Assembly (NCBI GenBank): GCA_002686955.1
Contig: NYZA01000235.1
Coordinates: forward strand, 1 to 9,841
Direction: 5' to 3'
DNA length: 9,841 bases
Source: Gemmatimonadota bacterium
Lineage (GTDB): Bacteria; GCA-2686955
The notes under the pieces were generated by a model that saw only the letters and a list, made by a program, of their open reading frames with translations, made no database searches and was not told where the DNA came from. This document shows positions 1 to 9,841 of this stretch, in pieces; the stretch's first letter is position 1, and the number at the start of each line of letters is the position of its first letter. The position numbers and the translations under genes were made by a program.

Positions 1-533
1 CCGAAGTCGCCGATTCGGTTGACGATGAACGCCTTCTTGCCCGCCAGCGCCGCGGAATCCTTCTCGAACCAGAACCCGATCAGCAGATAGCTCGCCAGAC
101 CGACCGCCTCCCAGAAAACGAAGAGAAGGAGGAAGTCCCCCGCCAAGACCAGCATGGTCATCGAGAAGACGAAGAAGTTCAGGTAGGCGAAGAAGCGGGG
201 GTAGCGGGGATCGGAGTGCATGTACCCCGCGCTGTAGATATGGATCAGCGTCGAGACTCCGGTCACCACCAGCAACATGATGCCGGTCAGACGATCGGCC
301 ACCAAGTGGATCGATGTCCTGAAGGAGCCGGCGACGATCCAGGGAAATAGATCGACCGAGAGCTCATGGCCTCGCAACACTTCGAAGAACACGCCGCAGC
401 TCGCCGCGAAGCTCAGCGCCACCGCCGTGATCGCCGGAATATGCGCAATCCCCTTCAGTCGAGCGTGGGCCGAACCGATCAGCACAACGCCGAGAAGGGG
501 AAAGAGCGGGATCAGTACCAGTAGACCATCCAC
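1..533 (-). CDS. nuoL2: NADH-quinone oxidoreductase subunit L, second copy, N-terminal part
   Basis: N-terminal 177 residues of a second ND5-family proton-pumping subunit, with the 3' end cut by the window edge. The protein begins MDGLLVLIPLFPLLGVVLIG. It contains LTGIMLLVVTGVSTLIHIYS (residues 82-101), then GYMHSDPRYPRFFAYLN, then LFVFWEAVGLASYLLIGFWF with Glu142 (E. coli Glu144). It ends at KKAFIVNRIGDF with Asp176. The wording AGKKAFIVNRIGDF is the common proteobacterial-type form, whereas the first NuoL (4410-6536) has ACKKAFLTNRVGDL. No ATG is available. GTG 533 is chosen because GGAAGGGG stands eight bases upstream and an in-frame TAA lies a short way further upstream. The frame is intact to position 1. 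Downstream genes, possibly a second nuoM and nuoN, would lie outside the window. Confidence 0.93.
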   Translation of the reverse strand, partial: MDGLLVLIPLFPLLGVVLIGSAHARLKGIAHIPAITAVALSFAASCGVFFEVLRGHELSVDLFPWIVAGSFRTSIHLVADRLTGIMLLVVTGVSTLIHIYSAGYMHSDPRYPRFFAYLNFFVFSMTMLVLAGDFLLLFVFWEAVGLASYLLIGFWFEKDSAALAGKKAFIVNRIGDF

Positions 534-541
534 GTCGGATG

Positions 542-549
542 CCCCTTCC
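542..549 (-). promoter_or_regulatory. Ribosome-binding site for nuoL2
   Basis: GGAAGGGG on the minus strand, eight bases before the GTG at 533. It fills part of the 19-base gap after nuoK2 and decides the start, since no ATG is near. Confidence 0.65.
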
Positions 550-552
550 GGA

Positions 553-855
553 TCAACCCTTTAGGAGATTGAAGGAACCCACGTCGAGGGTGCCGCGCGT
601 TCGGTGGATCAAAACGATCAGGGCCAAGCCCACCGCCACCTCGGCCGCCGCGAGCGCCAAGATGAAGAGCACCGACACCGGCGCCTGCGCGCCCCCATGG
701 ATTCGGGCTCCGGCCAGAAACGCCAGATTGCCCGCGTTGAGCATCAGCTCTATGCCCATGAAGAGGTGCAGCGCGTTTCGACGGGCCAGAACCACCAGCG
801 TTCCGACTCCGAAAAGCGCCGCACTCAGCAGCAGGTACCAACTCAAATCGATCAC
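553..855 (-). CDS. nuoK2: NADH-quinone oxidoreductase subunit K, second divergent copy
   Basis: Second ND4L-family subunit, 100 residues with three membrane helices. GIELMLNAGN holds Glu36 and AAAEVAVGLAL holds Glu72, so both proton-path glutamates are kept. A hand alignment with the first NuoK (6543-6848) gives about 46% identity, concentrated around RRNA, the Glu36 segment and the Glu72 segment. This indicates an old duplication or separate origins. The GTG start overlaps the nuoJ2 TGA, with GGGGAG about ten bases upstream. It ends in TGA, 19 bases before nuoL2. An MrpC-type antiporter subunit is the main alternative. The preceding canonical NuoJ and the following NuoL make complex I the better reading. 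Confidence 0.95.
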   Translation of the reverse strand: MIDLSWYLLLSAALFGVGTLVVLARRNALHLFMGIELMLNAGNLAFLAGARIHGGAQAPVSVLFILALAAAEVAVGLALIVLIHRTRGTLDVGSFNLLKG

Positions 856-1355
856 GACGATTCTTCTCCCCGTCGCCCGAGCACGACGACGCCCACCATC
901 GCCACCAGGAGCAATGCGGACACCAGCTCGAATGGATAGAGGAACTCCCCGAAGAGGGAGTGCGCGATCGCGGCGATCTCCGCCGGCGGACCTGGGTGCG
1001 TCGGAGTGTTGCCGCCGAAGGCGCCGATCGCCTGGACCAGAAGTCCCAATAGGCAGGCGGCGACGATCGAGGCCAAGGCGAATCGAGGACGATCCCAGCC
1101 CAGCGGCCCGCGCTCTTCGGCTCTGCGCACGAACATCGTGACGAAGAGAAAGAGCACCATGATCGCGCCGGCATAGACGATCACCTGCAGCGCGGCTACG
1201 ACGGGATCCGCGAGCTGCAGGTAGATTCCCGCCAGGGCGAGCATCGTCACCACGAGAGAAAGCACCCCGTCCACGGGGTCGCGACGGAAGAGCAGCATCA
1301 GCGCTCCTCCGAGCGCCAGGAGCGCGAGAAGCGCGAAAGAGATCGGGACCAGCAT
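852..1355 (-). CDS. nuoJ2: NADH-quinone oxidoreductase subunit J, second divergent copy
   Basis: Second ND6-family membrane subunit, 167 residues with about five hydrophobic segments. The third-helix signature is LQVIVYAGAIMVLFLFVTMF (residues 56-75). It carries the conserved Tyr61 of the family, in the wording typical of proteobacterial-type NuoJ and unlike the IYGGGITVLLLFGVML of the first copy. A last helix follows PFELVS (about 141-160), and the end is RRGEESS. The ATG lies four bases after the nuoN TAA (TAAGACCATG), so it is almost certainly on the same transcript. A GGGA sits about ten bases upstream inside nuoN. Its stop forms a GTGA overlap with nuoK2. The gene is intact. Whether it joins the same complex as the upstream subunits cannot be told from sequence. 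The suffix 2 is my label, not an established name. Confidence 0.95.
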   Translation of the reverse strand: MLVPISFALLALLALGGALMLLFRRDPVDGVLSLVVTMLALAGIYLQLADPVVAALQVIVYAGAIMVLFLFVTMFVRRAEERGPLGWDRPRFALASIVAACLLGLLVQAIGAFGGNTPTHPGPPAEIAAIAHSLFGEFLYPFELVSALLLVAMVGVVVLGRRGEESS

Positions 1356-1359
1356 GGTC

Positions 1360-2892
1360 TTAGCGTCCCAGGAAAAGTGTGGCCGAGTAGGTTGTTACCT
1401 TCTCGAAAGCGCCCCAAGGCACTCCAAAAACCAAGGTCACGGCCGCCAATGCCACGGAAAGGCTTGTCGCCAGCTCGGGTATTGCGCCGGTCCACTGCCG
1501 CTCCCGTAGCGGGCGGAAAACGAGCGCCTTCGCCACGCGGAAGTAGTAGTAGAGCGCGATCACCGAATTCACGGCACCGATTGCCGCGAGCCACCAGATC
1601 TCCTGGCGAATCGTCTCTGCGAATACGTAGTACTTGCCCAAGAACCCGAGCGACGGGGGTAGGCCGGTCAGAGAGTAAAGGAAAACCACCATCGCTACCA
1701 CGAGCATCGGCGCGTCGTTCGCCAATCCGTCGTAATCGCGCAGATCGACCGACCCGGTCCGCTCTCGGATCGCGATGACCACCAAGAAGGCGCCGAGGTT
1801 CATCACCAGATAGGCGGCCATATACACGATGATGGCGTGGAGTCCCTCGGGCGAAAGGGTAGAGACCGCCATGAGCACGAAGCCGACATGGGCGATCGAG
1901 CTGTAGGCCAGAAGACGTTTCATATTGGTCTGGCGCAGAGCACCGAAGTTGCCGAGGGTCATCGTTCCCGCGGCCAGAATCCCAACGAGCAGGGGCCAGT
2001 CCAAACTCCCCAGGAAGGTCCAGAAGCCGGGACTGGTCGAGGGGTTGCTCAAGAGCGTCACCAGAAAGCGGGAGAGCAGCGCGAAGCCCGCCGCCTTCGG
2101 AGCGACGGTGAAGAAGGCGGTCACCGGTGTCGGAGCCCCTTCGTACACATCCGGCGCCCAAAAATGGAATGGGACGCACGCGATCTTGAACCCAAGCCCC
2201 GCGATCACCAACACCAGCGCGAAGAGGAGCGCGAGCGGATAGGGGTTAGAGGCATACAGAACCTGGTTCGCCTCGATCAGCGAGGTCGTGCCGGTGAGCC
2301 CATAGAGGTAAGAAAAGCCGAAAAGCAGCACCGCCGACGACACCGAGCCGTAGAGAACGTATTTGAGCGACGCTTCGGACGAACGCCGATCGCCTCGCAC
2401 GAAACCGGCCATCACATACGAGGCCAGGCTGACGAACTCGACGCTGATGAAGATCGAAACCATGTCGGTGGACGAGGCCATCAGCATCATGCCAAGCACC
2501 GAGCCGACCGCCAATGTGTAGTACTCCGATCGATCGGCGACCGCGATTTCGTTGCTCATCATGGTCGAGAATACGAAGAGCACCGTCGCCAGCAGAAAAA
2601 CCGCATCGAAAAACGACGAGAAGGGATCGACCACCATCATCGTTCCGAACACGGCGCGCGGCTCCCCGGCGAATCCGGCCCATGTGGCGATCAACGCCGC
2701 GCCCATGCCCGCCAGCACGACCATCTCCAGCGGCCCCTGTCTTTTCCCCTTGCCGCGAATGAAGAAGAGATCGACCAGGACGATCGCCAGGACCGTACAG
2801 GTCACTATCAGCTCCGGCACGATCTGGCCTAGGGACTCGATCGTGGCCGCGGTCGAGGCCTCGAAGCTCAGCGAATCGATGGAGTGAGGCAC
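1360..2892 (-). CDS. nuoN: NADH-quinone oxidoreductase subunit N
   Basis: Third antiporter-like proton pump (ND2 family), next to NuoK in the membrane arm. It has 510 residues, slightly longer than E. coli NuoN (485), mainly because of a longer N-terminus. Pump residues are seen: Glu152 in FISVEFVSLASYV, Lys236 in GLGFKIACVPFHFWAPDVYE, Lys266 in APKAAGFAL, and Lys420 in GFLGKYYVF. These align with E. coli Glu133, Lys217, Lys247 and Lys395. The GTG start at 2892 is chosen because AGAGGA stands nine bases upstream and no other good start precedes the first helix. The gene begins with no space after the nuoM stop. It ends in TAA, and only four bases follow before the second nuoJ, with no terminator. 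In a standard operon nuoN would be the last gene. Confidence 0.97.
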   Translation of the reverse strand: MPHSIDSLSFEASTAATIESLGQIVPELIVTCTVLAIVLVDLFFIRGKGKRQGPLEMVVLAGMGAALIATWAGFAGEPRAVFGTMMVVDPFSSFFDAVFLLATVLFVFSTMMSNEIAVADRSEYYTLAVGSVLGMMLMASSTDMVSIFISVEFVSLASYVMAGFVRGDRRSSEASLKYVLYGSVSSAVLLFGFSYLYGLTGTTSLIEANQVLYASNPYPLALLFALVLVIAGLGFKIACVPFHFWAPDVYEGAPTPVTAFFTVAPKAAGFALLSRFLVTLLSNPSTSPGFWTFLGSLDWPLLVGILAAGTMTLGNFGALRQTNMKRLLAYSSIAHVGFVLMAVSTLSPEGLHAIIVYMAAYLVMNLGAFLVVIAIRERTGSVDLRDYDGLANDAPMLVVAMVVFLYSLTGLPPSLGFLGKYYVFAETIRQEIWWLAAIGAVNSVIALYYYFRVAKALVFRPLRERQWTGAIPELATSLSVALAAVTLVFGVPWGAFEKVTTYSATLFLGR

Positions 2893-4389
2893 CTACACAA
2901 TTCCTCTCACCAGATCGACGAGCGTGGCATCGAGCAGCTCGAGCAGCGGCTGCGGATAAACACCCAGATAGACCACGATCACCATCAGCGGCGCGAGAGA
3001 GACGATCTCACGGGGGCTGATGTCTTTGAGATCGGAGTAGGCCTCGTTGAGCGGCCCCAGGAAGACCCGCTCGTAGGTCCACAGAATGTAGCCGGCTCCC
3101 AGCACGATCCCCAGCAACGCCAACATCGTCGCCTTCGGGAAGGAGGGCAGCGAGCCCATGAAGACGAACGCCTCACCCCAGAAGCCGCTCAAACCCGGCA
3201 GCCCGAGCGCCGCGAAGAAAGCCACCATCACAATTCCCGCGTAGATCGGCGTCTGCAACCGGAGCCCGCCGAAGCGCTCAATGTCGCGGTGGTGCACCCG
3301 GTCATAGATCACGCCCACCAGGAGGAAGAGCATGGCGGTGATCGTGCCGTGGTTGAACATCTGCATCACCGCGCCACTGACGGCTTGCGGCGTGAGCGCC
3401 GCCATGCCGAGACAGACGAATCCCATATGCGAGATCGAAGAATACGCCACGAGCTTCTTGAAGTCGGTTTGCGCCATCGCACACATAGCGCCGTAGATGA
3501 TGTTGACCACGCCGAGCACCGCGAGCGTCGGAGCGAACCACTGAGTCGCCTCGGGGAAGATCGGATAGCAGAAGCGCAGGATTCCGTAGGTTCCCATCTT
3601 CAGCAACACCCCGGCGAGGATCACACTCACCGCGGTCGGCGCCTCGACATGGGCGTCGGGCAGCCAGGTGTGGAAAGGGAAGAGCGGGATCTTGATCGCG
3701 AAGCCGAGGAAGAGCGCCAGATAGAGCACCTTGCCCAGCGCCACGGCGTCGGGGTTGTTCGGGAGGATGCGCGCCATCTCGATGATATCGAAAGAGCCTC
3801 CCATCAGGTAGTACATCGCCAGACCGGCCAGTAACATCACGACCGAGCCGACCAGGGTGTACAGGAAGAACTTGATCGCCGCGTACTCTTTCCGAGGCCC
3901 GCCCCAGATGCCGATCAGGAAGTACATCGGCAGCAGCATCACTTCCCAGAACACATAGAAAAGGAAGAAATCGAGCGCGCAGAACACGCCGATCATTCCC
4001 GTCTCGAGCAGCAAGAAGAGCGCGAAATACGCTCTCACCCACTTCGTGATCCCCCACGAGGCGATCACACAGAGCACCGAGAGCAATGCGGTGAGCAGGA
4101 CCATCGAGACCGACAACCCATCGATCCCCATGTAGTACTCGATATTCAATGGAATTTCCTGCGCGCCCAGATCGGCCGTCAGGCTGATCCAACTCGCCCG
4201 CTCGACGAACTGGATCTCGCTCGTGCCGCGTTCGAATCCGCTCCACACCTGGAAGGCCAGAACCAGCGGAACCGCCGTCACCGCCAGCGCCACCCAGCGC
4301 ACGAGCTCGTCGCGCCCTCTTGGAAGCAGGAGTATCACGAGAGCTCCGATGAGCGGCACGAAGGTCATCAAGGTCAAGGTGTTGCCCAT
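2893..4389 (-). CDS. nuoM: NADH-quinone oxidoreductase subunit M
   Basis: Middle antiporter-like proton pump of the complex I membrane arm (ND4 family). It has 498 residues, close to the usual 500, with about 14 hydrophobic helices. Pump residues are intact: Glu149 in VFWEVMLLPMY, Lys233 in GFAIKIPLFPFHTWLPDAHV, Lys264 in AGVLLKMGTYG, His321 in YSSISHMGF, and Glu406 in SGFWGEAF. These correspond to E. coli Glu144, Lys234, Lys265 and Glu407. The frame is open upstream to 4740 over nuoL, but ATG 4389 is chosen because the first helix (MTFVPLIGALVILLLP) starts just after it. A weak GGGA/GGA lies in the 20-base gap after nuoL1. The TAG stop directly abuts the GTG of nuoN. Only one NuoM is seen in the window. 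Confidence 0.97.
   Translation of the reverse strand: MGNTLTLMTFVPLIGALVILLLPRGRDELVRWVALAVTAVPLVLAFQVWSGFERGTSEIQFVERASWISLTADLGAQEIPLNIEYYMGIDGLSVSMVLLTALLSVLCVIASWGITKWVRAYFALFLLLETGMIGVFCALDFFLFYVFWEVMLLPMYFLIGIWGGPRKEYAAIKFFLYTLVGSVVMLLAGLAMYYLMGGSFDIIEMARILPNNPDAVALGKVLYLALFLGFAIKIPLFPFHTWLPDAHVEAPTAVSVILAGVLLKMGTYGILRFCYPIFPEATQWFAPTLAVLGVVNIIYGAMCAMAQTDFKKLVAYSSISHMGFVCLGMAALTPQAVSGAVMQMFNHGTITAMLFLLVGVIYDRVHHRDIERFGGLRLQTPIYAGIVMVAFFAALGLPGLSGFWGEAFVFMGSLPSFPKATMLALLGIVLGAGYILWTYERVFLGPLNEAYSDLKDISPREIVSLAPLMVIVVYLGVYPQPLLELLDATLVDLVRGIV
2902..2907 (-). promoter_or_regulatory. Ribosome-binding site for nuoN
   Basis: AGAGGA on the minus strand, nine bases before the GTG at 2892. It lies in the last codons of nuoM. 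It supports the unusual GTG start that directly follows the nuoM TAG. Confidence 0.65.
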
Positions 4390-4409: not shown

Positions 4410-6536
4410 CTAATAGACCCGAATGAGCATCAGGACGAGCGTCCCGGCGAGAAAGAATGCGAAATAGTGTTGAATCCGACCGGTCTCCACGCGCCGAAAC
4501 GCCGCACCGAAGACCTGAGTGACCGAAGCGATTCCGTTCACGATTCCATCGATGATCCGCAGATCGGACCATCCGCTCCCGCTGGAGAGAGCGCGCGTGA
4601 GGGTCGCCGACCCGTTGACCGCGCCGTCGATCACCACGCGGTCGAAGGCGGCGCTCAACCGGTTGAGCCAGAGGAGCGGGTTCACCACGCCAGCCTGGTA
4701 CGCTTCGTCGACGAAGTACTTGTTGTAGAGCACCCGCCAAGTCCCCGAGAAGCGCCGCGCGAGCGCCTCCTGCGAACGTTTGCGGTGGTAGATCAGAGTC
4801 GCCAGCGCAACTCCTAGGATCAGCGCCAAGAGCGACAGATAGAGCACCGCCCTGTGCCCGGTGTGGAGCGAATGCGCATCGACCCGATGCGGACCCCAGG
4901 GAGCTTCGTGGTGCTCGGCGCCGGTCTCCGCGTGCGCCGGCTCCTCATGAGCCGCCTCCCCGCGCCCCGCCTCCGCCGCATGCGCGCCATGGCTCTCATC
5001 GAGCGCACCGGTCCTCAGACTCTCGCCGTAGTGGAATGCCGCGAACTGCTCCGCCGCATAGTCCGTCGAGCTCGGCGGTGTCACCATCCGCTCGAAAGGC
5101 CCGGCGTAGGCGAAGCCCAGCAACGTAATCGCCGATAGCACCATCAAGGGCGCGGTGATCTCGAAGCCGCCCTCGTGCGCATGCTCGTACTTCTCGCGAT
5201 CGCGCGGCTCCCCGAAGAAGGTCACGATCGTGACCCGTGTCATATAGAAGACCGTGATCACCGCCGCGACCATCGGCAGCGCGAAGATCAAGAAGTGTTG
5301 CGGAAGGTGCAGCCCGAAGCCCATCGCGTCGCCGAGAATCCGCTCCTTGCTGAAGAAGCCGTTCGTCAGCACCGGGAAGCCCGAGATCGCCGCTGTGCTG
5401 ATCACCCAGGTCGCGAATGTGATCGGCATCTTCTTACGCAGTCCACCCATCTCCCAGATATTTTGCGTATGCACCGCGTGGATCACCGAGCCCGAACCGA
5501 GGAAGAGGCAGGCTTTGAACGCCGCGTGTGTCGTCAGGTGGAAAAGTCCGCCGAAGTACGATCCCACTCCCAGGCCCACCATCATGTAGCCGAGCTGTGA
5601 AACCGTTGAGTAGGCGAGCACCCGCTTGATATCGTCCTGAACGATCGCGATCGTCGCCGCGAAGAACGCCGTGAGCGCACCGACATAAGCGATGACCAGT
5701 AGCGCATCGGGAGTCAGAATCGGGAAGAGTCGCCCGACCAGATAGACACCCGCCGCCACCATCGTCGCGGCGTGGATCAAGGCCGAAACCGGTGTCGGAC
5801 CCTCCATCGCATCGGGCAACCACACATGCAGCGGCAGCTGCGCCGATTTGCCCACCGCACCAACAAAGAGCAGCACCCCCGCGATCGTGAGCGTCGCCTC
5901 CGACGAGAACGCCCCCGCGCCGACATGGTGGTAGACCTGCTCGAGCCGAAGCACTCCAAGCTCTTTCCAGACCAACATGATCCCGAGCCACATGCCGAGA
6001 TCCCCTACGCGATTCGTCAAGAACGCCTTCTTGCACGCGAGCGCCGCCGATCGCTTCGGGAAGAAGAAGCCGATCAGCAGATAGGACGACACCCCGACCA
6101 GCTCCCACCCCACGAAGATCCCGAGCAGATTGTCCGAGAGCACGAGCCAGAGCATCGAGAAGGAGAAGAGCGACAGATAGCCGAAGTAGAGGTGGTAACG
6201 ATCCTCGCCGTGCATGTATCCGATCGAGAAGACATGCACCAAGAAGCTCACTCCTACGACCACCAGCAACATCCACGCCGTGAGCGTGTCGATCGCCAGC
6301 CCCATCGGAATGGTGAACCCTTCGACCTCGACCCACCGAAACACCATGCTCCACTGATAGCCCGGCTCCCCACCCGCCATCACCTGCCAGAAGATCCAGC
6401 ACGCGGCTAGAAGCGACGCACCGATCGCACCTACCGAAACAAAGTCCCCTCCGCGAGGCAATCGCGTCCCCAGAAACAACTGGACCACGAAGGCCGCGAG
6501 CGGTACGAGCAGACAGATTAGTGCGGCTGTGAGCAT
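4410..6536 (-). CDS. nuoL: NADH-quinone oxidoreductase subunit L, first copy (His-rich loop)
   Basis: Distal antiporter-like proton-pumping subunit (ND5 family). It has 708 residues against about 613 in E. coli. Key charged residues are present: Glu145 in FVGWELVG, Asp179 in NRVGDL, Lys230 in GAVGKSAQLPLHVWLPDAME, His255 in ALIHAATMVAAG, His333 and His337 in FHLTTHAAFKACLF, and Lys397 in GFFSKERI. The extra length comes mostly from a His/Glu/Ala-rich loop (about 514-561) before a membrane helix at 563-583. The long lateral-helix region (about 584-689) contains a near-repeat, and a final helix runs from 690 to 706. The gene starts six bases after nuoK1 and has no clear ribosome-binding site, so coupling is likely. 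The TAG stop is 20 bases before nuoM. Confidence 0.97.
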   Translation of the reverse strand: MLTAALICLLVPLAAFVVQLFLGTRLPRGGDFVSVGAIGASLLAACWIFWQVMAGGEPGYQWSMVFRWVEVEGFTIPMGLAIDTLTAWMLLVVVGVSFLVHVFSIGYMHGEDRYHLYFGYLSLFSFSMLWLVLSDNLLGIFVGWELVGVSSYLLIGFFFPKRSAALACKKAFLTNRVGDLGMWLGIMLVWKELGVLRLEQVYHHVGAGAFSSEATLTIAGVLLFVGAVGKSAQLPLHVWLPDAMEGPTPVSALIHAATMVAAGVYLVGRLFPILTPDALLVIAYVGALTAFFAATIAIVQDDIKRVLAYSTVSQLGYMMVGLGVGSYFGGLFHLTTHAAFKACLFLGSGSVIHAVHTQNIWEMGGLRKKMPITFATWVISTAAISGFPVLTNGFFSKERILGDAMGFGLHLPQHFLIFALPMVAAVITVFYMTRVTIVTFFGEPRDREKYEHAHEGGFEITAPLMVLSAITLLGFAYAGPFERMVTPPSSTDYAAEQFAAFHYGESLRTGALDESHGAHAAEAGRGEAAHEEPAHAETGAEHHEAPWGPHRVDAHSLHTGHRAVLYLSLLALILGVALATLIYHRKRSQEALARRFSGTWRVLYNKYFVDEAYQAGVVNPLLWLNRLSAAFDRVVIDGAVNGSATLTRALSSGSGWSDLRIIDGIVNGIASVTQVFGAAFRRVETGRIQHYFAFFLAGTLVLMLIRVY
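4515..4637 (-). repeat. Internal protein repeat in the NuoL1 lateral helix
   Basis: Residues 634-648 (VVIDGAVNGSATLTR) and 660-674 (RIIDGIVNGIASVTQ) of NuoL1 are a near-repeat with a 26-residue offset, sharing the pattern IDGxVNG. They lie between the last two membrane helices, where the long helix running along the membrane arm is expected. The offset is close to seven turns of an alpha helix, so both copies would face the same side. The repeat is visible only at protein level. Confidence 0.6.
4854..4997 (-). other. His/Glu/Ala-rich loop coding segment in nuoL1
   Basis: Residues 514-561 of NuoL1 contain ten histidines (516, 519, 530, 535, 542, 543, 550, 555, 558, 561) and many Glu and Ala, with little hydrophobic character. 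The segment sits between two membrane helices. It explains part of the extra length of this NuoL compared with the usual 610-650 residues. Confidence 0.75.
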
Positions 6537-6542
6537 CGAGAG

Positions 6543-6848
6543 CTAGCCCCGCAGCAGGTGGATCTCGTCCACCGTGATGTGTTTGTAGGTGCGGTAGATG
6601 TTGAGCAGGATCGCCAGCGCCACGGCGGCCTCGGCCGCGGCGAGCACGATGATGAAGAGCGCGAAGATCTGGCCGTTCACGCCACTTCCGACGAAGCGAT
6701 TGAACGCGACCAGATTGACGTTGCCGGCATTGAGCATCAGCTCGATCCCCATCAGCACCGTCACCGCGTTCCTTCGGGTCAAAACCGCGAAAAGGCCGAG
6801 ACAGAAGAGGATGCCGGCGAACACGAGATAGTGCACCAGACCGATCAT
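6543..6848 (-). CDS. nuoK: NADH-quinone oxidoreductase subunit K, first copy
   Basis: Small membrane subunit (ND4L and MrpC-like) between NuoJ and the antiporter-like pumps. It contributes buried glutamates to the proton path. It has 101 residues and three membrane helices. The signature GIELMLNAGN holds Glu36, and AAAEAAVAL holds Glu73. These match the two essential membrane glutamates known in E. coli NuoK (Glu36 and Glu72). The frame is open upstream to 7013, but ATG 6848 is chosen because homology starts at MIGLVHYL, it overlaps the nuoJ1 stop as ATGA, and it has a very strong ribosome-binding site. A six-base gap separates it from nuoL1. A second, divergent NuoK lies at 553-855. Confidence 0.97.
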   Translation of the reverse strand: MIGLVHYLVFAGILFCLGLFAVLTRRNAVTVLMGIELMLNAGNVNLVAFNRFVGSGVNGQIFALFIIVLAAAEAAVALAILLNIYRTYKHITVDEIHLLRG

Positions 6849-7354
6849 GAGCCCTCCTCCTCTCCGCTTCGTCGCGCCACGAAGAGCGCCCCGATCAAGA
6901 CCACCAGTAGCAAGACCGAGATCTCCTCGAAAGGCAAAAGGTGGGTCGTCATGATCGCGCTGCCGATCGCCTCCGATGTCCCGACCGGCTCCACCGGCGC
7001 GACGAGATCCCAATCGGCCCGCCGCGCCGCGGACCAGATCGCAACGAAGAACCCCCCGGCGATCGCAACGGCGGGCAACGCCTTCAGCGGATCGAGCTTC
7101 AGCTCCATCCCTTCGTGGCGGTGGGTGAGCATGACACCGAAGAGCAGTAGAACCGTGATACCGCCCCCATAGATCAGAAGCTGAGCGGCGGCCAAGAAAT
7201 CGGCCCGCAGAAACACATACATCGCCGCGACACCCAAGAAGGTGAACACGAGCGCGAAAGCCGCCCGCACGATATTCCGCGTGAAGACCACATAAGCGCC
7301 GGTCCCCAGGGTGAGCAGAGCGACCAGATACCAGATCGATGCCTCGAAACTCAT
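6845..7354 (-). CDS. nuoJ: NADH-quinone oxidoreductase subunit J, first copy
   Basis: Membrane subunit (ND6 family) of complex I. Its third helix is thought to switch conformation and link quinone chemistry to proton movement. It has 169 residues and about five hydrophobic segments. The third-helix core reads LLIYGGGITVLLLFGVMLT (residues 59-77), with a Gly triplet at the position of the family's pi-bulge. A last helix (about 144-160) follows PFEEIS, and the end is acidic (SGEEEGS). This helix-3 wording differs from that of the second copy at 852-1355, so the two are divergent paralogues. The ATG start overlaps the nuoI stop as ATGA. GAGG lies seven bases before the ATG, inside the end of nuoI. 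Confidence 0.95.
   Translation of the reverse strand: MSFEASIWYLVALLTLGTGAYVVFTRNIVRAAFALVFTFLGVAAMYVFLRADFLAAAQLLIYGGGITVLLLFGVMLTHRHEGMELKLDPLKALPAVAIAGGFFVAIWSAARRADWDLVAPVEPVGTSEAIGSAIMTTHLLPFEEISVLLLVVLIGALFVARRSGEEEGS
6852..6860 (-). promoter_or_regulatory. Strong ribosome-binding site for nuoK1
   Basis: On the minus strand the bases read GGAGGAGGG. The GGAGG core is seven bases before the ATG at 6848. It lies inside the end of nuoJ1, where it encodes part of the acidic Gly-Glu tail, and it settles the nuoK1 start over the longer open frame. Confidence 0.8.
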
Positions 7355-7986
7355 GGCGCCACCTCTTCGGAGACGCTCGCCTGGGAATCGGCCTCTTCCT
7401 CGACGAATCCCGACGAGGCGCTCTTGTCCTTCTCGGGATTCCGCCCGCAGAGCCCCACTCGCGGGTCGCCCATCAACCCCTCGGCCTTCTCGGCGAGCTC
7501 CGGCTTCTTCTCACGAACCTTCTCGATCACCTGCACGAACTCCTCGCGGAAAAGCGTCATATTTCGCTTCGCCGTCCGCTCCCCCCGCGCCACCAGATCG
7601 TAGTCGAGCGATTTGCGATCGAAGGTCGCCAGCTCGTACTCCGCCCCCATCGTGATGCACTCGGTCGGACAGACCGGAATGCAGTACCAACAGAAGAGAC
7701 ATTTGTTGTAGTCGATGCTGAAGCGCGAGACGAGCACGTTCTCTTTGTCGATCCTGTCGAAGGTCTGCTCGATGCAGCTCACCGGGCAGGCATTGGCGCA
7801 CTGATTGCACGCGATGCAGATGTCGACCTTCAGATGGTGCAACCCCCGAAAACCGTTCGCGACCTTCACCTCTTCGAAGGGGTAGTGAACCGTCACCGAC
7901 TTCTTGAAGAGGTAGCCGAAGGTAACCCGCAGCCCCGCGACCGCGCTCTTCAACCCCTCGTAGATATTTCGGAAATAGGCTCTCAT
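7351..7986 (-). CDS. nuoI: NADH-quinone oxidoreductase subunit I, 2x[4Fe-4S] ferredoxin-like
   Basis: Connecting Fe-S subunit carrying clusters N6a and N6b, which pass electrons towards NuoB and quinone. It has 211 residues. The first cluster motif is CIACNQCANACP (Cys57, 60, 63, 67) and the second is CLFCWYCIPVCP (Cys96, 99, 102, 106), the standard CxxCxxCxxxCP pair. The N-terminus (MRAYFRNIYEGLKSAVAGLR) is the amphipathic helix that lies along the membrane. After about residue 180 comes a tail rich in Glu, Ser and Ala, unlikely to be part of the Fe-S fold. The frame stays open upstream over nuoH to 8316, but ATG 7986 is chosen because the family homology begins there. The ribosome-binding site is weak (GGA six bases upstream), so translation may depend on nuoH 11 bases upstream. 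The stop forms an ATGA overlap with nuoJ1. Confidence 0.97.
   Translation of the reverse strand: MRAYFRNIYEGLKSAVAGLRVTFGYLFKKSVTVHYPFEEVKVANGFRGLHHLKVDICIACNQCANACPVSCIEQTFDRIDKENVLVSRFSIDYNKCLFCWYCIPVCPTECITMGAEYELATFDRKSLDYDLVARGERTAKRNMTLFREEFVQVIEKVREKKPELAEKAEGLMGDPRVGLCGRNPEKDKSASSGFVEEEADSQASVSEEVAP
7362..7365 (-). promoter_or_regulatory. Ribosome-binding site for nuoJ1
   Basis: GAGG on the minus strand, followed by seven bases and then the ATG at 7354. It is embedded in the last codons of nuoI, so nuoJ1 can be started both by this site and by coupling through the ATGA overlap. Confidence 0.6.
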
Positions 7987-7997
7987 CGCGGGTCCGT

Positions 7998-9047
7998 CTA
8001 CACCAGGATCAGCCAGAAGGCCGCCCCGAAAACGTTGATGAAACCGAGGGGTGTCAGCACCTTCCACGCCAGATACATGAGCTGATCCACCCGCAGCCGG
8101 GGGAAGGTCCATCGGAACCACATCTGCACGAAAACGAGCAGCAGCACCTTCGCCATCAGAACAACCGGACCCGGCAGAATCCCCAGGCCGAGCGGATCGT
8201 GCCACCCGCCGAGATAGAGCACGCTCGCCACGACGGCGACCACGAACATCTCGGAGTATTCCGCCAGGAAGAAGAAGGCGAAGCACATCCCCGAGTACTC
8301 GGTGTGAAAGCCGCACACCAGCTCCGACTCCGCCTCGGGCAGATCGAATGGCGCCCGGTTTACCTCAGCGAGCGACGCGAGAAAAAGCGCCCCAAAGGCG
8401 ACGATCGTGAAGGGCCCCCCCGCGAAGATGTTCCAATTCCAGATGCCTCCGGCCTGCACCTCCACGATCCCCTGCATCGACAGCGTGCTCGAAGCGAGAA
8501 GCGCCGGAACCAGCGCGAGCCCGACCGGAATCTCGTACGAAACGATCTGCGCCGCCGCCCGCATCCCCCCGTAGAGGCTCCATTTGTTGTTGCTGGCCCA
8601 CCCCGCCATGATCACACCGATCGCCGATAGCGATGTGATCGCGGCGATATAGAGAACGCCGACGTTCAGATCGGCCACGATCAGCTTCTCGCCCCAGGGG
8701 ATCGGCACGAAGGCCATGAAGGCCGACATGAAGACCACCAGAGGCGCCAGCATGAAGAGCCAGCGATCGGCCATTAGCGGAATGATGTTCTCTTTCAGCA
8801 GCAGCTTCACGCCGTCGGCGATCGACTGTAGCCACCCGTGCCAGTACCCCGTCGTCATCGGCCCCACGCGGCTCTGGATATGGGCCGAGATCTTCCGCTC
8901 CCACCAGACCAGGAACATGCCGTTCAGCGCCACCACGCCGAGCACCGCGGCGCAAGAGGCGAACATGACCAGCATCGCCGCGACACCGGGCGAGAGACCC
9001 GCGAGCAGCGCCCCCGGCAGCGTCAGATTTTGCGCGAGCTCACTCAC
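7998..9047 (-). CDS. nuoH: NADH-quinone oxidoreductase subunit H, complete
   Basis: Membrane subunit (ND1 family) that anchors the peripheral arm and forms the entry of the quinone chamber and the first part of the proton path. It has 349 residues, slightly longer than the usual 320-345, and about eight hydrophobic membrane segments. Diagnostic motifs are WWERKISAHIQSRVGP (residues 48-63), ADGVKLLLKE (77-86), GWASNNKWSLYGGMRAAAQ (149-167), AEVNRAPFDLPEAESEL (227-243, the conserved acidic loop next to the quinone cavity), and RWTFPRLRVDQLM (312-324). The GTG start shares a GTGA overlap with the nuoD stop. A GGGAG lies about 10 bases upstream inside nuoD, which supports coupled translation. The gene ends in TAG 11 bases before nuoI. 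All expected motifs are present and nothing suggests decay. Confidence 0.98.
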   Translation of the reverse strand: MSELAQNLTLPGALLAGLSPGVAAMLVMFASCAAVLGVVALNGMFLVWWERKISAHIQSRVGPMTTGYWHGWLQSIADGVKLLLKENIIPLMADRWLFMLAPLVVFMSAFMAFVPIPWGEKLIVADLNVGVLYIAAITSLSAIGVIMAGWASNNKWSLYGGMRAAAQIVSYEIPVGLALVPALLASSTLSMQGIVEVQAGGIWNWNIFAGGPFTIVAFGALFLASLAEVNRAPFDLPEAESELVCGFHTEYSGMCFAFFFLAEYSEMFVVAVVASVLYLGGWHDPLGLGILPGPVVLMAKVLLLVFVQMWFRWTFPRLRVDQLMYLAWKVLTPLGFINVFGAAFWLILV

Positions 9048-9841
9048 CGGTCCACATCTCCCATGACGACATCGAACGACCCCAAGACCGCCACCAGATC
9101 GGCGATCATCAGCCCAGGCGCCAACTCTCCGATGACCGAGAGATTGCTGAAACAGGGCGAGCGCACCTTGCAGCGCCAGGGCTCGACCTTGCCGTCGGCC
9201 ACGACATAGAAGCCGAGCTCACCCCGCGGCGTCTCGGTTCGGCAATAAACTTCGTTGTATTTCGGCTTCAGGCGCGGCGACACCTTTGCCTGGAAGGGAC
9301 CCCTCGGCACCTTCTCCAGCGCCTGCCGCACGATCCGCACCGACTCGCGCATCTCGCGCAGTCGAACCATGTATCGGTCCCAAGTATCGCCGGTCTTACC
9401 TACATCACCCTTGCCCACGACTACGTCCCAGTCGAATCGGTCGTAGATCGAGTAGGGATCGTCGCGCCGCAGATCCCAGTTCACGCCGCAGGCCCGCAGA
9501 ACCGGCCCCGTGCAGCCGTAGTCGATCGCCATCTTCGCCGGAATCACACCGATACCGGCCGTGCGTTTGATGAAGATCTGATTGTAGGAGAGCAGCCGAT
9601 CGTACTCCTCGAGCTTCGGCTCGAAGTAGTCCAGAAAATCGGCGATCATTCCGAGCTGCCGCGAATCGATATCGCGCATCACTCCGCCCACATAGATATA
9701 GGCGTAGGTGAGCCTCGCACCACACATCTCCTCGAAGATATCGAGAATCTTCTCGCGCTCCCGAAACGCGTACAGAAATGGTGTTATCGCCCCCACATCG
9801 AGCCCAAAAGTGCCGAAGGCCACCAGATGACTGGCGATCCG
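9044..9841 (-). CDS. nuoD: NADH-quinone oxidoreductase subunit D (49 kDa), C-terminal part
   Basis: Peripheral-arm subunit of complex I that, with NuoB and NuoH, forms the quinone-reduction site at the membrane surface. The reading frame is open to the window edge, so 265 C-terminal residues of a protein normally about 400 long are seen. The GTG at 9823 is an internal Val, preceded in frame by RIASHL, and is not the start. Family signatures include GAITPFLYAFREREKILDIF near the beginning, TGPVLRACGVNWDLRRDDPY in the middle, ETPRGELGFYVVADG, and PWRCKVRSPCF near the C-terminus. The protein ends in FDVVMGDVDR, the usual NuoD-type ending. It lacks the C-terminal Cys pair of NiFe-hydrogenase large subunits, which argues against a group 4 hydrogenase. 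The N-terminal quinone-site His and Tyr residues lie outside the window. Its TGA stop overlaps the nuoH GTG start. The next gene is nuoH, not nuoE. Confidence 0.97.
   Translation of the reverse strand, partial: RIASHLVAFGTFGLDVGAITPFLYAFREREKILDIFEEMCGARLTYAYIYVGGVMRDIDSRQLGMIADFLDYFEPKLEEYDRLLSYNQIFIKRTAGIGVIPAKMAIDYGCTGPVLRACGVNWDLRRDDPYSIYDRFDWDVVVGKGDVGKTGDTWDRYMVRLREMRESVRIVRQALEKVPRGPFQAKVSPRLKPKYNEVYCRTETPRGELGFYVVADGKVEPWRCKVRSPCFSNLSVIGELAPGLMIADLVAVLGSFDVVMGDVDR

Follow-up and report, generated by a model that had tools for sequence, protein, structure and literature searches.

A second complex I membrane arm behind nuoN in a Gemmatimonadota genome, with its likely core on another contig

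Described variants of complex I and the locus

Cyanobacterial NDH-1 is a complex I lacking NuoE, NuoF and NuoG (EFG-less), in which the D and F subunits (NdhD and NdhF) are multiplied on a shared core. The 2M complex I (Chadwick et al., 2018), whose features are given here after PMC9040806, PMC6606698 and PMC7117926, has a second NuoM between NuoL and NuoN. Insertions in the lateral helix of NuoL, 26 residues long, are reported in complexes with additional pumps (PMC9040806; for the lateral-helix insertion also PMC6606698), but PMC9040806 records them in complexes called canonical in gene content as well. Two further variants are described in these sources: the Green complex I of rhizobia, where MrpD-like subunits replace NuoL (PMC9040806), and the separate nuoBCDI genes and fused nuoCD of Chloroflexi (PMC7117926).

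The DNA analysed here (the window) is one entire contig of 9841 bp (G000:C235) from a Gemmatimonadota metagenome-assembled genome (MAG; G000) of 4.28 Mb in 270 contigs, which is 84.5% complete. Its GC content is uniform over the whole length (0.58-0.67). The relevant genes all lie on the minus strand in the order nuoD(C-terminal part)-H-I-J1-K1-L1-M1-N1-J2-K2-L2(5' part), as follows.

9044..9841, minus strand: nuoD1, C-terminal part, open at the contig end (NCBIfam NuoD, 2.3e-97)
7998..9047, minus strand: nuoH1 (Pfam PF00146 at 8028-8951, 3.8e-112)
7351..7890, minus strand: nuoI1 (NCBIfam NuoI, 1.9e-26)
6845..7354, minus strand: nuoJ1 (NCBIfam NuoJ, 7.5e-35)
6543..6860, minus strand: nuoK1 (NCBIfam NuoK, 5.6e-34)
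4410..6536, minus strand: nuoL1, with a 26-residue duplication in lateral helix HL (NCBIfam NuoL, 3.6e-195)
2893..4371, minus strand: nuoM1, 5' end not fixed, the frame being open further upstream (TIGR01972, 2.1e-183)
1360..2892, minus strand: nuoN1, closing the complex 1 operon (TIGR01770, 1.9e-122)
852..1355, minus strand: nuoJ2, first gene of arm 2 (NCBIfam NuoJ, 5.9e-32, below the curated cut-off)
553..855, minus strand: nuoK2 (NCBIfam NuoK, 1.3e-28, passing the curated cut-off)
3..533, minus strand: nuoL2, N-terminal 177 aa, open at the contig end (NCBIfam NuoL, 3e-64; truncated and below the curated cut-off)

A first-pass annotation of this DNA had described a tightly spaced J-K-L module directly behind nuoN on the same strand, and the description holds. 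J2, K2 and L2 are intact minus-strand ORFs matching the corresponding NCBIfam models, L2 as far as the contig end; nuoL2 is cut because the window is the whole contig and ends there. The four-base gap between nuoN1 and nuoJ2 can be read directly as the stop TAA (1362-1360), then GACC, then the J2 ATG at 1355, and it is followed by a 4-nt overlap of J2 with K2 and a 19-nt gap between K2 and L2. All four of the residues said to be kept, Glu36 and Glu72 in K2 and Glu142 and Asp176 in L2, are present. A sequence scan of positions 1-3000 returned no sigma-70 promoter-like sites and 12 terminator-like sites against 2.8 expected, with none in the N1-J2 gap; the scan was given no weight in the reading below. 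A shared transcript is probable because this 4-nt gap is too small for a terminator; arm 2 is thus probably co-transcribed with the complex 1 operon, and one transcript would carry both arms.

The sole other genome of the phylum in the comparison set is a MAG of the same family, 'Gemmatimonadetes bacterium isolate T2_metabat2_scaf2bin.146' (G001); both family genomes are fragmented and 83-85% complete. One of its contigs (G001:C281, JALXCG010000281.1) carries N1-J2-K2-L2-M2-N2, with N2 cut by the contig end. Identity to the window is 76% for N1, 63-65% for J2, 74% for K2 and 79% for L2 (over the shared 177 residues). Thus nuoM2 and nuoN2, which the first-pass annotation proposed looking for, do follow L2 in the sister, and the order it suggested searching for in related genomes recurs from N1 to L2. 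Arm 2 is complete (J, K, L, M, N) on this contig, and M2, N2 and the remainder of L2 are known from the sister only. Since N1-J2-K2-L2 recurs on an independent contig and continues there into M2 and N2, chance and misassembly are excluded. When the contigs of the genomes were searched with J2, the matches were the sister and two distant loci only. A second sister contig (G001:C692) holds A-B-C-D-H-I-J1-K1-L1-M1, lacking E, F and G genes alongside, and pieced together across contigs the full order would read A-B-C-D-H-I-J-K-L-M-N-J-K-L-M-N.

Gene counts and the pairing of cores with arms

The genome also holds the further D/H/I set that the annotation proposed looking for. This second core lies on another contig (G000:C1) in the order A-B-CD-EF-G-H-I, with C and D fused and E and F fused; behind its nuoI come ORFs that match no Pfam family and a glycosyltransferase gene, with no J to N genes among them. 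The sister has the same core up to a contig end (G001:C261), with identities of 76% for A, 83% for B, 70% for CD, 75% for EF and 69% for G. C1 was assigned to the source organism by binning, and the sister, which has both gene sets too, supports this assignment. In total the source genome has two J, two H and two D genes (three D matches represent two genes, one of them in two pieces). With two cores against two arms, arm 2 is therefore the only one left for core 2.

The remaining antiporter-type genes of the source genome form an Mrp-type Na+/H+ antiporter cluster on another contig (G000:C102:1-9000, L008). Its three antiporter-type genes had led to the proposal that this contig continues the window with nuoM2 and nuoN2; gene order and gene sizes are those of an Mrp cluster, the proposal was rejected, and the cluster is unrelated to arm 2. 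Two NuoF-like (Complex1_51K) genes lie outside both cores (G000:C150:6167-6604 and G000:C68:3540-3956) and may encode subunits of a hydrogenase or formate dehydrogenase, or else feed electrons into core 1.

Very likely, then, there are two complete complexes I in this genome, the second of them split, with its membrane arm behind nuoN1. Complex 1 would be the 11-subunit A-B-C-D-H-I-J-K-L-M-N form, with NuoE, NuoF and NuoG absent from the cluster. Complex 2 would be of the NADH type with fused NuoCD and NuoEF, its A-B-CD-EF-G-H-I core encoded on the other contig and its J2-K2-L2-M2-N2 arm directly behind nuoN1. Each arm would join its own core, arm 1 the EFG-less core 1 and arm 2 core 2, a physical pairing that we infer from sequence; core 2 would hand electrons from NADH to quinone, and arm 2 would run as an ordinary three-pump arm (L2, M2, N2). 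This reading builds on what the sequences show: the order of the genes, the recurrence of that order in the sister, the count of two against two and the resemblance of arm 2 to the arms of NADH-type complexes. Against it, the family MAGs are 83-85% complete, and the assemblies may lack another arm or core. The annotation's suggestion of a second nuo cluster fused in tandem survives in part: the genes behind nuoN1 are the arm of a second complex I, but its core is on another contig. This comes close to the complete second operon further on that the annotation had named as grounds against its own reading, except that the A to I core is on a different contig. The arrangement of the genes is unusual; the enzyme itself is most likely not of a new kind.

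The association between core type and arm type was examined in 36 clusters from other genomes that hold H and J together. Cores like core 2 are termed type 2 (NADH-type) and those like core 1 type 1 (EFG-less). Where H was nearer H2, J was nearer J2 in 18 of 22 clusters, and where H was nearer H1, J was nearer J1 in 12 of 14 (Fisher p 1e-4). The same test gave 15/20 and 12/14 for M (p 1.3e-3; rank correlation 0.69) and agreed for K (p 5e-3), while for L and N the association appears in rank correlation and not in counts. In a tree of 49 arms, arm 1 of the window falls inside the type-1 clade (SH-aLRT 100); arm 2, from the window and the sister, falls on the opposite side among the arms of NADH-type complexes, and the core tree divides in much the same way. 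The AU test rejects an origin of arm 2 by duplication of arm 1 within this lineage (p 7.4e-5). On 26 rows it falls short of formally rejecting a position of arm 2 among the type-1 arms (p 0.195), and the case rests for this reason on branch support, the H-J and H-M associations and the gene count.

Separated cores and arms also occur in other lineages. Type-2 cores often have no adjacent arm (G074, G093, G172, G099, G025, G052, G156, G029 and G176). In G052, G325 and G074 a JKLMN arm follows E and F genes, away from D, H and I, and in G025 and G172 it follows F/G-type genes. The closest relatives of J2 outside the sister include the separate arms of G325, G052, G025 and G172. An EFG-less operon lies in tandem beside an NADH-type operon or arm in G138, G150, G215 and G226 (L120, L121, L139, L141), which belong to four different families, some of these loci being cut by the limits of the stretch analysed. 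Another N-J junction occurs in G096 (L102) and G234 (L140), in the order J-K-N-J-K-L-M-N. The window would fit a pattern in which a type-2 arm is left or placed behind an EFG-less operon with its core elsewhere, a rearrangement whose direction we infer.

Type-2 complex genes and a further arm are scrambled in G096 and G234, with another M (L-M in G096) upstream of A, and G096 locus L119 has A1- and H1-like genes together with G2- and I2-like genes. G093 (99% complete; L101, L117, L128) has three cores, counted as three H, against two J and two arms, and one of its cores may share an arm.

The first-pass annotation had also considered that arms 1 and 2 are interchangeable on the single D1-H1-I1 core, a logic like that of the alternative NdhD and NdhF of cyanobacterial NDH-1. 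The probable location of both arms in one operon would suit such an arrangement, and the three H and two J of G093 suggest that arm sharing between cores may occur elsewhere. However, an armless second core in the same genome, giving two cores for two arms, and the tracking of arm type with core type in other lineages make interchange very improbable. A mixed arrangement, in which the two arms come from one operon and either swap between the cores or lend M2 to complex 1, docked beneath the long NuoL1 helix as a fourth pump, is likewise very improbable; if true, it would allow the cell to tune protons per electron by mixing arm subunits.

The NuoL lateral helix and additional pumps

The C-terminal lateral helix of NuoL1 contains a 26-residue tandem duplication, marked by two IDGxVNG motifs 26 residues apart; such an insertion is reported as the hallmark of 2M complex I. 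From the NKWY anchor to the end, NuoL1 measures 104 residues, against a canonical 83 in the sister's NuoL2, which has no insertion. The cluster of NuoL1 has a single L, M and N despite its insertion, and the EFG-less type-1 clusters of several other lineages combine the same lengthened NuoL with a single L, M and N. Among the genomes searched for NuoM, matches above the curated cut-off number at most one per arm whether NuoL is lengthened or not; G172, for example, has a lengthened NuoL and a single NuoM above the cut-off. Because the insertion is also reported in complexes of canonical content and no surplus NuoM is present in the genomes checked, the insertion alone is no sign of a fourth pump here. 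With a full J to N set to itself and a NuoL2 helix of canonical length, arm 2 looks like an ordinary three-pump arm.

These observations bear on the third suggestion of the annotation, an extended complex in which M2 or the whole of arm 2 is added to complex 1 in the spirit of the 2M complex I. The NuoL1 insertion favours it to the extent that such insertions are reported with added pumps in PMC9040806 and PMC6606698, but PMC9040806 places them in complexes of canonical content too. The extended complex is also disfavoured by the canonical helix of NuoL2, by the position of arm 2, which brings a J and K of its own and follows nuoN1 instead of lying between L1 and N1, and by the one full-length NuoM per arm in the genomes checked, those with a lengthened NuoL included; it is very improbable. 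A functionally redundant J-K-L-M-N copy recently duplicated in tandem within the operon, or an assembly artefact such as the join at the N1-J2 junction against which the annotation had cautioned, might be suspected from the short contig and MAG source, but is hardly conceivable given the same junction in an independent genome with proteins 64-79% identical, which led to rejection of an artefact, the AU rejection of within-lineage duplication and the retained key residues.

Comparison with known systems

A genome with two complexes I of this kind indicates that membrane arms and cores may come apart and be joined anew along the chromosome. In several lineages an EFG-less operon has an NADH-type operon as its neighbour. 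Finding J-K-L genes after nuoN is by itself no proof of a larger pump, and a lengthened NuoL helix without surplus NuoM bears on how that insertion is read. If the arms are co-transcribed, the NADH-type arm would be expressed in step with the EFG-less complex, and the two complexes would be predicted to assemble in a coordinated way.

As in cyanobacteria with NDH-1, the genome has a complex I that is EFG-less, and its distal pump genes are present in more than one set. In contrast to that system, the whole J-N arm is doubled here, J2 and K2 included, and there are two cores. The likeness of the locus to the 2M complex I, as the citing sources describe the latter, lies in a NuoL1 insertion of about the reported length and more than one NuoM in the gene string. 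The second NuoM between L and N is absent, with one M between L1 and N1 and M2 after L2 in the sister; M2 belongs to its own JKLMN module after nuoN1 and does not stand beside M1, NuoL2 is canonical, and a second core is present. As in the Green complex I (PMC9040806), additional antiporter-type genes occur in a complex I gene string, but L1 and L2 both score best as NuoL and the Mrp genes form the separate C102 cluster. Finally, the locus resembles a canonical NADH-type complex I encoded at split loci, in that complex 2 appears to have all 14 functions and the core and distal arm lie apart. It differs from such a complex in that the arm adjoins the nuoN of another complex I, so that two JKLMN sets stand in tandem.
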